A stretch of 64,000 nucleotides of DNA from the NCBI RefSeq assembly GCF_900103535.1, contig NZ_FNHQ01000002.1, positions 62,001 to 126,000 of the forward strand, given 5' to 3'. The DNA comes from Megasphaera paucivorans (GTDB taxonomy: Bacteria; Bacillota; Negativicutes; Veillonellales; Megasphaeraceae). The translations under genes were made by a program, and so were the position numbers. A model generated the notes under the pieces. The model did no database searches. It saw nothing but the letters and a program-made list of their open reading frames with translations, and was not told the origin of the DNA. Positions 19,700 to 27,570 of this stretch are shown here, in pieces (the stretch's first letter is position 1; each line of letters starts with the position of its first letter).

Positions 19700-20446
19700 A
19701 TGGAATATGTATCTGCTTTACTGCAGCCGGAAAATCTACAGCCGTTATTTGTCGTTTTTTTTGCAGCTTTTGTGCAGGCTATTACCGGCTTTGGATTGGT
19801 TATACTGGCGGCGCCGATGCTGATGCTTTTTTTTGCAGCCAAAGAAACTATACTTATTACGCTTCTTGTTGCTATATGTTCTAATACACTGCAAACGGGA
19901 TTAGTATACAAAGATGCGGATGTTAGACTTGTACGACATCTGGTCATGGGGGCTGTGGCAGGATTACCGGTAGGGTTGTTTTTTTATCATGGGGTTTCCA
20001 ACGCTATGCTGAAAATCTTGATCAGTTTAGCTATCTTGGCATTTCTGGTTATTTCTCATTTTTTACGATTGCATTTTCAGAAAACGAAAAAAAAATCACT
20101 TATGACAGGTGTATTATCCGGATTTTTTTATACAACGACAGGGATGGGGGGAATACCTCTCATATTGTATACGACACATATGAATATGACTCCTAAAATG
20201 ATGAGGGGAACATCTATATTATATTTTTTCTTTGGGAATATATTTTCATTTTTAGCTTTTTATTTGAGTGGAACTGATTTTTTTTATGCGGGACAACATG
20301 TATTGTATCTTTTGCCGGGGTTATTTATGGGACTGGGATTGGGGCATATTATTTTTCCGCATGTTCCCGTTGTTATTTTTCGCAGACTGGTATTTGTTTT
20401 ATTGTATATTGCCTGTTTTTACTCTATTTATGCAGCATTATCATGA
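19700..20446 (+). CDS. TSUP (TauE/SafE) family membrane transporter
   Basis: A 248-aa integral membrane protein with about eight hydrophobic segments in two repeats. It shows the family motif QAITGFGLVILAAPML in the first repeat and the Gly-rich TTTGMGGIPLILY in the second. TSUP proteins export sulfite, sulfoacetate or other sulfonates and some organic anions. AAGGATGG serves as ribosome site. The hydrogenase gene follows 65 bases later in the same direction. Substrate is unknown; a second TSUP gene lies at 26812. Confidence 0.85.
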   Translation: MEYVSALLQPENLQPLFVVFFAAFVQAITGFGLVILAAPMLMLFFAAKETILITLLVAICSNTLQTGLVYKDADVRLVRHLVMGAVAGLPVGLFFYHGVSNAMLKILISLAILAFLVISHFLRLHFQKTKKKSLMTGVLSGFFYTTTGMGGIPLILYTTHMNMTPKMMRGTSILYFFFGNIFSFLAFYLSGTDFFYAGQHVLYLLPGLFMGLGLGHIIFPHVPVVIFRRLVFVLLYIACFYSIYAALS

Positions 20447-20511: not shown

Positions 20512-21750
20512 ATGAGTTCGCTAGATGAGTTATACAAAAAAATGCTGCAAAATGCTGTAACTGGTGAAGACTATACTGTTCCAGAAGATGCTGATGAGGA
20601 TCAGTTAGATTGCCTTCTTCATCCGGAGGCCCATCCTTTAGTATGGAGGACGGAATCTTGTGACTGTGCCAAAAATGGAAAAAGTTCATGCATGTCAGTT
20701 TGTGAGTTTGGAGCTATTACATCTGATCCCGAAAAGGGAATTTCTATTGATGATAAACAATGCGTAGGCTGCCAGGCGTGTATTGATGAATGTAAGCTTC
20801 ATAATCTTACTCCCAGCAAGGATATTATGCCGGTAGTGGAAACGCTGCATACATATCAAGGTCCGGTGTATGCATTGATAGCACCGGCGTTTTCAGGACA
20901 GTTTGGTGATGATATTACTTCAGGGAAACTGCGTACCGCCTTGAAACAGTTGGGATTTGCAGGCATGATTGAAGTGGCCATCTTTGCAGATATATTGACG
21001 TTAAAAGAGGCGTTGGAGTTTGATAAAAATATTAATAGTGAAGCAGACTTTCAGCTTACAAGTTGCTGCTGTCCTATGTGGATTGCTATGATAAAAAAAC
21101 TCTATCATCAATTACTTCCTAATGTTCCCGGAGCCGTATCGCCGATGATTGCCGGCGGACGAACCATAAAGGCGCTTCATCCTCAGGCTAAGACTGTTTT
21201 TATCGGACCTTGTCTGGCAAAAAAGGCTGAACGGCGTGAGCCGGATATTGCTGATGCAATTGATTATGTTCTGACATATCAAGAGTTAAGGGATTTGCTG
21301 GAAGCTTCTGATATTGATCTTGCATCTTTGGCAGAAGATGATCGCCAGCATGCTTCTCGTGCGGGCATTAGTTATGCATATGCCGGTGGTGTTAGTGAGG
21401 CAGTGCAAAAAACGGTGGAAAAATTGAATCCCAATCGGCCTATTTCGATTCATACGCGAAAAGCAGATGGGGTTCCTGGATGTAAAGCGTTAATAAATGA
21501 TATATTGGAAGGGCACCGCGAAGGGAATTTTTTTGAAGGGATGGGGTGCGTTGGTGGTTGTGTTGGCGGACCCCGGGCAATTATCGATAAAGAAAAAGGG
21601 AAAAGTCATGTACAATCATATGGTGCAGCTGCCAAGTATGATACGCCTATGGAAAATCCTTATGTTATTGAATTATTAAAACGGTTAGGGTTTGATACAA
21701 TTGAAGATTTTTTAGAAAAAAGTGATATGTATAATCGGGAATTTAAATGA
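20512..21750 (+). CDS. [FeFe]-hydrogenase, monomeric, ferredoxin-like N-terminus
   Basis: A 412-aa iron-only hydrogenase catalysing 2H+ + 2e- to H2, probably with ferredoxin. The N-terminal half has Cys clusters for iron-sulfur centres (SCDCAKNGKSSCMSVC, then CVGCQACIDEC). H-cluster motifs follow: L1 TSCCCPMW, L2 FIGPCLAKKAE and L3 EGMGCVGGCVGGP. These differ from the classical group A wording (TSCSPGW, MPCTAKKFE, MACPGGC) and look like the group B or related lineages. The N-terminus is shorter than in clostridial CpI and there is no NuoG-like domain. GGAAGGG precedes the ATG. Sensory forms are possible, but no PAS or other signalling domain is present. Confidence 0.85.
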   Translation: MSSLDELYKKMLQNAVTGEDYTVPEDADEDQLDCLLHPEAHPLVWRTESCDCAKNGKSSCMSVCEFGAITSDPEKGISIDDKQCVGCQACIDECKLHNLTPSKDIMPVVETLHTYQGPVYALIAPAFSGQFGDDITSGKLRTALKQLGFAGMIEVAIFADILTLKEALEFDKNINSEADFQLTSCCCPMWIAMIKKLYHQLLPNVPGAVSPMIAGGRTIKALHPQAKTVFIGPCLAKKAERREPDIADAIDYVLTYQELRDLLEASDIDLASLAEDDRQHASRAGISYAYAGGVSEAVQKTVEKLNPNRPISIHTRKADGVPGCKALINDILEGHREGNFFEGMGCVGGCVGGPRAIIDKEKGKSHVQSYGAAAKYDTPMENPYVIELLKRLGFDTIEDFLEKSDMYNREFK

Positions 21751-23310: not shown

Positions 23311-23365
23311 ATGAGTATTAAAATAAGAGGGGGTCATGGTGCCTCCTCTTATTTTAATACTCATT
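23310..23365. terminator. Long hairpin between convergent DUF2156 and dead-exonuclease genes
   Basis: A perfect 21-bp stem (23310-23330 with 23345-23365) around a 14-base loop, starting within the stop codon of the left gene; a T-rich run follows on the plus strand. Confidence 0.75.
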
Positions 23366-24445
23366 TTATTTTTTTTCGATCATTTGGAATGGGGCATAAC
23401 CGCTGGCTGTTGTACTGCTCCCGTCGGCAATGGTAACAGGGACAAATCCGTTGTCTAATGGTTTCCCGGTAACCTTAACGGCAGTCCGGGACGAAAAGAT
23501 GATAACTTTTCCTTCTTTTACCATTGTGCGCAGTGTATCCTGCATTTTTTCTTTTGATGTAATATGTATGCTGTTTAAGTCTTTTGCATCAAGAATGATA
23601 TATGTCCCGCTTTCCATATAGTATGTTTGGTTGGTGTCATATACAGGGGGCGCAGCTTGTTCAACGATACTTGATGCAGGCGCATTGATTAATTCATTTT
23701 GCATGAACATATAATATCCCATGCTGATAGCAGAAACGATTAGAAAAACACCAAGACCTATATACGGATTACGGAAAATATACGGATTGCGGGGTGTTTG
23801 AGCTGAATTTTTTTCCAGATAAAAGCCACGATGGGGTTTCTTGGCAGGCATATCTGATACTAAACCCAGTATGATGGCTAAGGGGATGCCGTAATCATTG
23901 ACAGGATATGCTGACTGAATCCAGTCCACTGCACATACACAGGCCATGGCCCGGCTTAGGCAGCTGTCTAAATCTACATTAATATCCATTTTATGTGTAA
24001 TTGATAATAAAGAATCATTTCCCAGATTTGGCAAATAAGTACGTGCTAAAATGGATAAGTCACGAACGAAGAAGTCATTGTCGGCAAAAGTTTTTCCGGA
24101 TTGTTCATAACTGGCTTTTATGGACAGGAATAAAGGTTCTGATTTATATGCCGATAAGGTAGGATGTCTAAGTAAAGGGCGAATATCACGATCCCATACG
24201 ACATCAAAGGTATCACTGTCCTGAACCATTACTGCCGTTACTTTGCGGGAAGCGCTGAAATCGTCTGTGGGAGGCTTAGCATAATAATAAATGCCTCGGA
24301 CATTACCGCCGCTGATCCATGCAACAGCGATACAGCAAATGCTGTTGAGATTTTCGTTAGCTAAGTCAACCGACAAAGCGATGGTTGTATTGGGTTTTAA
24401 ATTATTCAAGGTGTCTAAGGTTTCTCTGACCGCATTATTGACCAT
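23366..24445 (-). CDS. Membrane-anchored protein with a degenerate DnaQ-like exonuclease domain
   Basis: A 359-aa three-part protein. Residues about 20-180 follow the DEDDh exonuclease pattern of DnaQ/RNase T: TIALSVDLANENLNSICCIAV matches the strand that carries the Asp/Glu pair, then VTAVMVQDSDTFDVVW, then LSAYKSEPLF. All metal ligands look replaced: the DxE pair reads S25/D27, the second Asp is L105, and the HxxxxD motif reads D160/S164. One membrane helix follows at about 229-248, then a beta-rich tail (280-359, IILDAKDLNSIHI…VKVTGKPLDNGFVPVTIADG) resembling an SH3-like domain, presumably extracytoplasmic. Function unknown; a pseudo-nuclease that binds nucleic acid or protein is inference. 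Confidence 0.65.
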   Translation of the reverse strand: MVNNAVRETLDTLNNLKPNTTIALSVDLANENLNSICCIAVAWISGGNVRGIYYYAKPPTDDFSASRKVTAVMVQDSDTFDVVWDRDIRPLLRHPTLSAYKSEPLFLSIKASYEQSGKTFADNDFFVRDLSILARTYLPNLGNDSLLSITHKMDINVDLDSCLSRAMACVCAVDWIQSAYPVNDYGIPLAIILGLVSDMPAKKPHRGFYLEKNSAQTPRNPYIFRNPYIGLGVFLIVSAISMGYYMFMQNELINAPASSIVEQAAPPVYDTNQTYYMESGTYIILDAKDLNSIHITSKEKMQDTLRTMVKEGKVIIFSSRTAVKVTGKPLDNGFVPVTIADGSSTTASGYAPFQMIEKK

Positions 24446-24514: not shown

Positions 24515-24540
24515 ACCGGATAGGGAAAAGCCTATCCGGT
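24515..24540. terminator. Hairpin between the NYN-LOTUS and dead-exonuclease genes
   Basis: A perfect 10-bp stem ACCGGATAGG / CCTATCCGGT with a 6-base loop. On the minus strand it is followed by TTTT, a weak terminator ending the NYN gene. Confidence 0.6.
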
Positions 24541-24554
24541 ATGTAACTATAGTG

Positions 24555-25427
24555 TTATTTATTTCGGTTATTGCGGCGGTGTATCATGTGAGAGCGCTGT
24601 CGCGGCAAGGGCTTTAATCTAAAATAATTGTGTTTGACAGTTTCGTTTTTAGTGTCAGTAATTGTATTGACTTCAAACATTTTTAACGATTCGATAAAAG
24701 GAACAAATTTTTTATAACCAAAATTACGGACATCAAAATCGGAAAACTGTTTATTCAGCAAATTTCCTAAAGTTCCGGAAAAAATCCACCCATTATCATC
24801 AGAGTTTTCTTCTGTTAATTTAATTAATGCTTGTTTTATGGTTTTGATATCTTTTCCGGAGGTCGTGTCTGGGGAAAACTCGTTTATAATATCGTCAGTA
24901 TGGGAGGGAACGCTTTTATCCATATGGGATATACAAGTTTTAGGGGCAAGTGCGGTGTGTTCTTCTTCCTCCACCGTCGTTTCTTGGGTTTGTGTAAGCA
25001 ATACATCCAGATAAAGAAATTTATTGCATGCAGAAATAAAAGAACGAGGAGTTTTGCTTTCTCCCATGCCGATTACGTATTTTTGCGATTCCCTTAACCG
25101 AGATGCCAGACGGGTAAAATCACTGTCTGAGGAGACGATGCAAAATCCATCCAAGTTGTTTTGATACAATAAATCCATGGCATCAATAATTAATGCCGAA
25201 TCGGAAGAGTTTTTCTTTGTCGTATTACTGTATTGCTGGATAGGTTGAATGGCATTATCCAAAATTGTATTTTTCCATGAAGCCATCTGTGATGTGGTCC
25301 AATTGCCGTAGATTCGTTTGTAAATTACGTCGCCAATACCGTTAGCTTCTGATAAAATTATATCAATGTAAGCTCCAGATATGTTTTCTGCATCAATTAG
25401 TACGGCTAGTTTCATTTCATTATCCAT
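24555..25427 (-). CDS. NYN-domain (PIN-like) ribonuclease with C-terminal LOTUS/OST-HTH domain
   Basis: A 290-aa protein. Residues 6-150 form a NYN/LabA-like PIN domain: KLAVLIDAENISG (Asp12), SSDSALIIDAMDLLY (Asp76, Asp82) and GFCIVSSDSDFTRLASRLRE (Asp101, Asp103) provide the acidic metal site. Residues about 210-275 (IKQALIKLTEEN…WIFSGTLGNLLNKQFSDFDVRNFGYKKFVPFIESL) match the LOTUS/OST-HTH domain, which binds RNA. The C-terminus is basic. The frame is open much further upstream, but GGGAGGA precedes the ATG at 25427. The combination is known in bacteria and suggests RNA cleavage or RNA handling; the target is unknown. Confidence 0.85.
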   Translation of the reverse strand: MDNEMKLAVLIDAENISGAYIDIILSEANGIGDVIYKRIYGNWTTSQMASWKNTILDNAIQPIQQYSNTTKKNSSDSALIIDAMDLLYQNNLDGFCIVSSDSDFTRLASRLRESQKYVIGMGESKTPRSFISACNKFLYLDVLLTQTQETTVEEEEHTALAPKTCISHMDKSVPSHTDDIINEFSPDTTSGKDIKTIKQALIKLTEENSDDNGWIFSGTLGNLLNKQFSDFDVRNFGYKKFVPFIESLKMFEVNTITDTKNETVKHNYFRLKPLPRQRSHMIHRRNNRNK

Positions 25428-25530: not shown

Positions 25531-26397
25531 TTATATGTTTTCTTTTTTTTCTCTATCAAGCAGATAGCTGCAAAATGTTTTTACAACGTTGTTATCTTTA
25601 CATTGTTCATTGAGATACAGCCAAGTATGCCGTATGAGCGGCTGGTTATTTCTATCACATAGATTTTTGCTCCAAAGCGTTGGGATTGCTCCGGAAGGAG
25701 CTAGCAGAGTATAGCCTAATCCACTGCAGACCATTTGCATACATAAATCAAGGCTATTGACCTCGATACGAGTATGGGGCAATTGATTAAAGTTGCTGGT
25801 CCACCAATCATGAAGCGACGATTGCAGCGGTCGGTCTGCCTGGCGGTAAATCATAGGAATTTGCGGGAGTTTTTTCAAATCAATAGGAGTAGCATTAATG
25901 ATACAGTAGGGATCTCTGCGCAATAAAAATTTAGGTCCAGACCAAGGATAGTCTCCGCGGATAATTCCCATTTGAATGGTACCGCCGCAAAGTTTATCAT
26001 AAATATTTTGGCTTAGATCGGTGTGCAGACGGACATTGACAACAGAGTGATCGTGACAAAAATCGTTTAGTATATCACCTAGTTTATACTTTGCATAAAT
26101 ACTAGCACAACCGATATTTAATGTTCCCATAATATCCGTTGTTTTTGGCTGAATAGCATGTTTTATTTGACGAAAGTCCTGTAAATAACGCCTGGAAAAT
26201 TGGCATAAAAGCTCTCCTTCCGGTGTAAAACTAATGCCGCGTACACTGCGAATGACAATGTTACAGCCCATTTCTTTTTCTATTTGTTTGATTTTTGCAC
26301 TTATTGTAGGTTGAGTAAAAAATAATCGTTTGGCTGTTTTTGTAATGCTTCGTTCTTCGTGAAGCATGTTGAGTAATTCCCAATCTTTTTCGTTCAT
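25531..26397 (-). CDS. LysR family transcriptional regulator
   Basis: A 288-aa LysR-type regulator. The N-terminal winged HTH is LNMLHEERSITKTAKRLFFTQPTISAKIKQIEKEMG, and the effector-binding domain spans residues about 90-285 (LNIGCASIYAKYKLGDIL… and MQMVCSGLGYTLLAPSG). It is transcribed away from the small gene and TSUP transporter at 26621-27570. LysR regulators usually control the divergent neighbour, so this one probably governs that transporter. Effector unknown. Confidence 0.88.
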   Translation of the reverse strand: MNEKDWELLNMLHEERSITKTAKRLFFTQPTISAKIKQIEKEMGCNIVIRSVRGISFTPEGELLCQFSRRYLQDFRQIKHAIQPKTTDIMGTLNIGCASIYAKYKLGDILNDFCHDHSVVNVRLHTDLSQNIYDKLCGGTIQMGIIRGDYPWSGPKFLLRRDPYCIINATPIDLKKLPQIPMIYRQADRPLQSSLHDWWTSNFNQLPHTRIEVNSLDLCMQMVCSGLGYTLLAPSGAIPTLWSKNLCDRNNQPLIRHTWLYLNEQCKDNNVVKTFCSYLLDREKKENI

Positions 26398-26620: not shown

Positions 26621-26776
26621 ATGATGAGTAAGTGGATGCGCATGCAAAAAAAAACAGGAAATAAACAAAATACGGATACGTCCTTATTTTGTTTATTAAT
26701 TCGAGATACGTATGAAATTCTATGTAATTTACAGAGGCAGATGGCAGCAGAAGGAAATACGTGGATGCTTGGCTGA
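26621..26776 (+). CDS. Small hypothetical protein, 51 aa, ahead of TSUP gene
   Basis: An open frame of 51 codons with AGAGGAGG 8 bases before the ATG, a better ribosome site than that of the transporter 35 bases downstream. The product opens MMSKWMRMQKKTGNKQ, has a mixed core (SLFCLLIRDTYEILCNLQRQM) and no recognised motif. It probably shares the transcript with the TSUP gene and may be its small partner or a leader peptide; both are inference. Confidence 0.5.
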   Translation: MMSKWMRMQKKTGNKQNTDTSLFCLLIRDTYEILCNLQRQMAAEGNTWMLG

Positions 26777-26811
26777 TAATTTACCATTACTGTATGAAAG
26801 GAAGTTTTGTC

Positions 26812-27570
26812 ATGGAAATATTATTGATCTTATTTATTATGGGATGTTTTTTGGGATTTGTCGGCGCCGGAGGAGCCGGGGTGGTTATTGCGATTCTTAC
26901 TGTAGTTTTTGGTATACCTATTCATGTGTCTTTAGGCACCTCTCTCAGTGCCATGGCATTTACTACATTGTCTGGTGCCTATAGTCATTACAGAGAAGGC
27001 AATGTGGTATTAAAAAGTGGAATAGCCGTCGGTTTTTTTGGAGCATTTGGTGCTTTTGCCGGAGCTAAAATATCAGCGGCAATTCCAGGGGCGCAGATGC
27101 ATTTTCTAACAGGAGCAATATTATACATTACTGCTGTTTTAGTATATTTAAAAGTATTTTATCCCCATAGTGGTATTTTTTCCCTTATTAGTCCGCATAC
27201 ACTGACCCGGGGGAAAAAGTTTTGGTTGATGGCAGGTATTGCCGGGATTTTTAACGGTGTTTTGTCAGGAACATTTGGTATTGGAGCAACTCCTTTTATT
27301 CAATTGACATTGATGATTTTTTTTGGACTATCTATGATTGAAGCGGTGGGAACGACTATGTTGGTCATTTTGCCTATTGCGGTTATGGGAGGATTTGGAT
27401 ATATGACTTCTGGATTATTGGATTTTAATTTATTTGTTAAAGTAGTAATCGGTCTTATGGCTGGCGCCTATATTGGAGCAAAATTTACCAGACGGGCCAA
27501 TCCTATGCTGCTTAAAATAGCGATGGTCGCAGTTCCCATATTTGGGGGTACTATGTTGATATTTGGTTAA
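26812..27570 (+). CDS. TSUP (TauE/SafE) family membrane transporter
   Basis: A 252-aa permease with about eight membrane segments. The first-repeat motif is GFVGAGGAGVVIAILTVVFGIPIHVSLGTSLSAMAFTTLSG and the second is GVLSGTFGIGATPFIQ. The longer reading frame starts at a GTG without a ribosome site; GAAAGGAAG precedes the ATG at 26812. Predicted to export small sulfur-containing or organic anions. It is divergent from a LysR regulator, which likely controls it, and follows a 51-aa open frame. Not closely similar by eye to the TSUP protein at 19700. Confidence 0.87.
   Translation: MEILLILFIMGCFLGFVGAGGAGVVIAILTVVFGIPIHVSLGTSLSAMAFTTLSGAYSHYREGNVVLKSGIAVGFFGAFGAFAGAKISAAIPGAQMHFLTGAILYITAVLVYLKVFYPHSGIFSLISPHTLTRGKKFWLMAGIAGIFNGVLSGTFGIGATPFIQLTLMIFFGLSMIEAVGTTMLVILPIAVMGGFGYMTSGLLDFNLFVKVVIGLMAGAYIGAKFTRRANPMLLKIAMVAVPIFGGTMLIFG

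Follow-up and report, generated by a model that had tools for sequence, protein, structure and literature searches.

A predicted membrane-anchored, catalytically degenerate DnaQ-like protein encoded beside a NYN-LOTUS predicted ribonuclease in Megasphaera paucivorans and its relatives

Genes and features of the locus

The window, a stretch of 64,000 nucleotides from the 2.9 Mb genome of Megasphaera paucivorans, carries a gene, hereafter A, that starts at the ATG at 24445 after an AAAGGA ribosome-binding site and codes for a protein whose closest named record, in a contig scan with the single sequence, is that of a Megasphaera sp. MAG (90% identity). Immediately upstream and in the same orientation lies a gene for a protein with an NYN and an OST-HTH/LOTUS domain, both of which exceed the curated Pfam cut-offs; its likely start is an ATG with a GGGAGG ribosome-binding site, while the ORF list starts it at the TTG at 25559. 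The coordinates of the two genes and of their elements are collected in Table 1.

Table 1. Features of gene A and of the adjoining NYN-LOTUS gene, in window coordinates
Feature	Position	Strand	Basis
Gene A, membrane-anchored pseudo-DnaQ (predicted), 359 aa	23366..24445	(-)	ORF; 12 orthologues; purifying selection
DnaQ/RNase H-like domain of A, about residues 20-180, predicted catalytically degenerate	23906..24388	(-)	Profiles; structure model
Degenerate Exo I motif, S25 (for D) and D27 (for E)	24365..24373	(-)	Alignment
Degenerate Exo II position, L105 (for D)	24131..24133	(-)	Alignment
Degenerate Exo III motif, D160 (for catalytic H) and R165 (for D)	23951..23968	(-)	Alignment
Single transmembrane helix of A, residues 229-247	23705..23761	(-)	Hydropathy; helix in AlphaFold model
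C-terminal SH3-like domain of A, about residues 262-359, predicted periplasmic	23369..23662	(-)	Model; same domain in two lipoproteins
Terminator-like hairpin CCGGATAGG-CTTTTC-CCTATCCGG + TTTT between A and NYN-LOTUS	24516..24539	(-)	Seen by eye
NYN (PIN-like RNase) + OST-HTH/LOTUS protein, upstream of A	24555..25427	(-)	Pfam NYN 3.5e-36, OST-HTH 4.7e-15

In the window protein no segment other than the transmembrane helix is strongly hydrophobic, and the lysines and arginines that flank this helix (two before, none after) fit a tail outside the cell, with a charge signal that is weak or ambiguous in several orthologues. From residue 271 onward the tail is modelled at a pLDDT of 57-83 per ten-residue block and resembles SH3-like barrels, including bacterial NlpC/P60 SH3b domains, with a best Z of about 5.5; this moderate score supports its assignment as an SH3-like beta barrel. 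Beyond the A family, the tail domain occurs in only two proteins, both lipoproteins as judged by their signal sequence, which supports an extracytoplasmic, and thus probably periplasmic, position of the tail in A. The single helix and the external SH3-like tail had both been put forward in the original prediction; the former is recovered and the latter finds support, its location outside the cell being probable. The best reading of the topology is that of a single-pass inner-membrane protein with a cytoplasmic DnaQ-like domain.

At L165:1523-5001 (+), genes for two successive DnaQ fusion proteins, one of which bears a SWIM zinc finger, are followed by a gene for a lipoprotein with the SH3-like tail domain of A; the DnaQ and SH3-like tail domains are thus fused in the A lineage and encoded by adjacent genes at that locus. 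In the window, A and an LPG-synthase-like gene converge on a long hairpin of 20 pairs (23314-23361), which is probably a terminator shared by the two. Two TauE/SafE-type exporters are encoded within 7 kb (19700-20446 and 26761-27570 (+)), one of them adjoining a [FeFe]-hydrogenase-like protein (20512-21750).

The DnaQ-like domain and its degenerate site

The assignment of the N-terminal domain relies primarily on profile comparisons. Pfam returned no significant match for the window protein, and across the family its RNase_T model reached only one of the 13 members, not significantly (E=0.11), while the NCBIfam model NF004844 (DNA polymerase III epsilon) covers residues 22-171 of A at E=1e-4 and finds 12 of the 13 members, the best at 1.7e-7. 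Moreover, the profile of the domain aligns by hhalign over 148 columns with the active short DnaQ of Negativicutes (probability 98.9, E=2e-17), against probabilities of 0.1-0.7 for the controls, namely ten column-shuffled and two unrelated alignments. The A family profile, run without bias over all six frames of 300 genomes from the class (E<=1e-9), recovered the A family, a paralogous family, hereafter B, and otherwise only genuine DEDDh exonucleases; a direct search of solved structures with the sequence of A gave no meaningful match.

The AlphaFold prediction for residues 1-195, computed from 40 aligned rows, reached a pLDDT of 88 and a pTM of 0.84, and both Foldseek (best E 1.3e-7) and VIA-align (Z 18-19) group the resulting model with the PolC and epsilon exonuclease domains of DNA polymerase III. 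As the input rows are almost all DnaQ relatives, including DnaQ rows from viral contigs, this agreement is partly circular and confirms the fold rather than proving it independently, although the profile tests and their controls back it; when the full-length protein was modelled with one close relative only, the DnaQ part reached a pLDDT of only about 27. On the combined evidence of profiles and model, the N-terminal domain belongs to the DnaQ/RNase_T (RNase H-like) fold superfamily. The original prediction of a DnaQ-like fold in the first 180 residues is thereby borne out, and the different fold that would have spoken against it was not what structure prediction returned.

Against the intact 185-aa DnaQ encoded in its own genome, A has all five DEDDh ligands replaced (D by S25, E by D27, D by L105, H by D160, and D by R165). 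The same set, S/A/T, D, L/T, D and R, is found in 12 of the 13 members of the family, so that the DEDDh residues, whose retention in orthologues would have contradicted the initial reading, are lost there too; the remaining member, L015 of genome G005, is further degraded (H, R, Y, D, C) and retains D160. Four of the losses listed in the original prediction (S25, D27, L105, and D160) hold, whereas the position of the last aspartate corresponds to R165 and not to S164, which occupies the H+4 position, where some active relatives also carry a serine. The ligands are intact in the 185-aa DnaQ that these genomes encode besides A. Loss of exonuclease activity in A is therefore what the absent ligands lead us to infer.

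The residues of the domain have nonetheless been kept under constraint. D129, D158, D160, S164, Y100, and H151 do not vary among the 13 members, the most diverged included, D27 and R165 are kept in 12, and C169 and H151 are the only invariant Cys/His residues of the family. Between close pairs, dN/dS of the DnaQ part is 0.04-0.13, the lowest or near-lowest value within the protein and below that of the linker and membrane part, and orthologues with identities down to 38-45% are found. These ratios indicate strong purifying selection, which does not suit a relic, and judged by the pattern of substitutions the domain is a maintained one with a changed job. Lastly, the domain is acidic in most members (pI about 5), a property that speaks against simple nucleic-acid binding and favours binding to protein.

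Gene neighbourhood, paralogues and distribution

The NYN-LOTUS gene lies immediately upstream of A, and co-oriented with it, in all 12 genomes in which this can be tested, the window included; in the thirteenth, G006, A is at a contig edge. The genes outside the pair vary between lineages on both sides and, named by eye, include TetR, LacI-like, helicase, CpXC, ATPase, DUF368, CobT, and, downstream, LPG synthase. The gap between the two genes is 23-48 nt in seven genomes, in which a single transcript is likely, and 99-122 nt in the other five, which include the window. In the window co-transcription is uncertain, since the longer gap there holds the hairpin listed in Table 1; a scan that did not report this hairpin gave no minus-strand terminator and pointed to a weak promoter-like site at 24514-24485.

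By protein search, NYN-LOTUS is present throughout the family (17 of 17 genomes) and absent from the other 44 genomes of the order. Each of the 17 proteins keeps the acidic motifs IDAEN, SSDSALIID, and SSDSDF, with one S/T change in the second of them. Four genomes, which form one clade on the NYN tree, have NYN-LOTUS without A, so that the RNase does not require A there. At 11 NYN-LOTUS loci read in other Negativicutes families, no A-like neighbour was seen. A gene for a secreted M48-type peptidase, named by eye, often precedes NYN-LOTUS, also where A is absent (L071, L074-L076, L050, L051).

Family B is a second group of dead DnaQ proteins, encoded away from A in 15 of the 17 genomes (L002:1261-2340 (+), L016-L024; G000:C49). 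Its members, of about 318-359 aa, begin with a membrane helix, which is followed by a DnaQ-like domain (Pfam RNase_T 6e-11), again devoid of the DEDDh ligands, and by a C-terminal region with no assigned fold. Homology between A and B is clear, with the A2 profile matching A at 5e-14 and an hhalign probability of 97.7, while the intact 185-aa DnaQ is kept in the same genomes as A; in a tree, A, B, and the active DnaQ form separate groups, on branches too long to show which of them gave rise to which. In the lineages checked, the gene beside B codes for S (L101:7014-7478), a small secreted protein that no Pfam model matches. At E<1e-40, S is present in 11 genomes, and these coincide with the set that has an intact-form A together with B. 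This co-occurrence is based on few events, since the four genomes without A are one clade; four genomes have B but no A, and two, one of them only 78% complete, have A but no B. In another bacterial family, genome G105 encodes (L167:3486-4532 (+)) a membrane-anchored DnaQ with intact DEDDh residues and a SAP domain; its position between XRE-type regulators and a tyrosine integrase suggests that it is probably carried by an integrated element.

Within the class, one genome per species was sampled, while the search outside the class was one contig scan with the window protein, which reaches close relatives only. Plasmid and phage collections gave no match to A, viral contigs none to the profile of A or B, and PADLOC none to A at E<=0.01 with a 2023 library, an absence that excludes little. 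In the open-access literature, a membrane-anchored bacterial pseudo-DnaQ was not found. The original statement that no such system had been described holds for the combination, of which no report was found, but not for its parts, which are known from Maelstrom, pExoDinG, and TREX1.

Proposed function and comparison with known systems

Because the A gene always adjoins the NYN-LOTUS gene, A is a candidate to hold or control the RNase, or its RNA, at the membrane, and the reading favoured here, with a probability of about 0.4, is that A is a membrane-anchored pseudo-exonuclease that serves the NYN-LOTUS RNase, or its RNA, as a dock or regulator at the inner membrane. Specifically, the DnaQ-like domain would have lost exonuclease catalysis and been kept as a binding module, and A would form a two-gene unit with its constant neighbour, the predicted ribonuclease. 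The dead domain may bind either the RNase or the RNA 3' ends on which the RNase works, by which A would bring the NYN-LOTUS activity to the inner membrane, and the SH3-like tail could touch an envelope ligand and may signal the state of the envelope inward. The sensor or scaffold role suggested in the original prediction would be of this kind, and the NYN-LOTUS neighbour and the second dead DnaQ paralogue, both of which it had missed, give the idea testable content. The fuller picture is distinctly tentative: a membrane-bound assembly for RNA processing, where a dead DnaQ, by a Maelstrom-like logic, would recruit an RNase of MARF1-like architecture while the periplasmic SH3-like domain couples it to the envelope. 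A would then be the first partner described for a LOTUS nuclease in bacteria.

Other readings of the same data are each less likely. The dead domain of A could by itself bind single-stranded nucleic acid and serve as a tether or sensor at the membrane, without involvement of the RNase and with the adjacency reflecting shared regulation only; Maelstrom, an RNA-binding dead DnaQ (PMC4408791), is a precedent, and promoter-like or terminator-like elements separate the genes in some genomes, but the acidity of the domain and an adjacency of 12/12 despite differing outer flanks make this unlikely. Somewhat less plausible again is a heteromeric, envelope-linked complex of A and B, perhaps with S, to which the neighbouring RNase would be peripheral. 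DEDDh enzymes, RNase T among them, form dimers, and such a complex would suit the clear homology of the two ligand-less families as well as the match between S and the genomes with intact-form A and B; it is weakened by the genomes that have only one of the two, by the unlinked genes, and by the small number of events behind an absence confined to one clade.

The invariant residues also raise the prospect that a re-made site (D27, Y100, D129, D158, D160, and R165) still gives A a catalytic activity or lets it bind nucleotides, an "active site switch" like that proposed for Maelstrom. Acids remain at the old ligand positions only as D27 and D160, the Exo II aspartate having become leucine and the last one arginine, and no DEDD enzyme is known to work with such a set, so that this reading is improbable. 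As for an exonuclease relic on its way to loss, with a functionless DnaQ domain, the absence of A from four genomes and its further degradation in G005 could be cited, but this was rejected as barely credible, being largely refuted by the substitution pattern (dN/dS 0.04-0.13), by the conservation of the replacement residues themselves, and by the retention of A across its diverged orthologues. The docking of the RNase or its RNA by A thus remains the preferred explanation.

Bacterial NYN-LOTUS proteins are widespread predicted RNases, for which a conserved membrane partner offers a concrete handle on function and location. Moreover, two separate membrane-anchored dead DnaQ families beside an intact one, in a single bacterial lineage, would be a clean case of the turning of an exonuclease fold into a binding module outside eukaryotes.

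Among the known systems, the short DEDDh 3'-5' exonuclease of Negativicutes (DnaQ-like, about 185-210 aa, RNase_T PF00929) shares fold and profile with A over residues 22-172, whereas A has the five ligands replaced and adds the membrane helix and the SH3-like tail. TREX1, whose C-terminal helix holds it at the membrane, is likewise anchored, and its fold compares with the model of A at a Z of about 15; unlike A, it is an active eukaryotic DEDDh-fold enzyme with no domain beyond the membrane. The metazoan Maelstrom is a DnaQ-fold protein that has lost DEDD and binds single-stranded RNA (PMC4408791), and its MAEL domain resembles that of A in the loss of the ligands and the conservation of residues of its own (PMC4408791, PMC2628886). 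Conversely, the invariant columns of A lack the EHHCHC / ECHC zinc set, and Maelstrom belongs to the eukaryotic germline and has neither anchor nor tail; since A has neither the DEDDh ligands nor the MAEL zinc set, it is filed in the fold superfamily only. In pExoDinG, a DinG protein, the N-terminal pseudo-exonuclease domain, thought to bind nucleic acid and modulate its partner domain (PMC11981726), is bacterial like A but DEDDy-type, fused to a helicase, and devoid of a membrane anchor. Pseudo-DnaQ domains are hence already known, while the pairing of A with NYN-LOTUS appears undescribed, as does their gene linkage as far as could be found. The neighbour gene itself has the architecture of bacterial NYN/LK-nuclease + OST-HTH proteins and of MARF1/Limkain b1; a 2010 survey (Anantharaman et al., PMC2848206) described no conserved neighbourhoods that link bacterial genes of this kind to other known systems for RNA processing, a picture from which the present family differs in that its NYN-LOTUS gene has a constant membrane partner.
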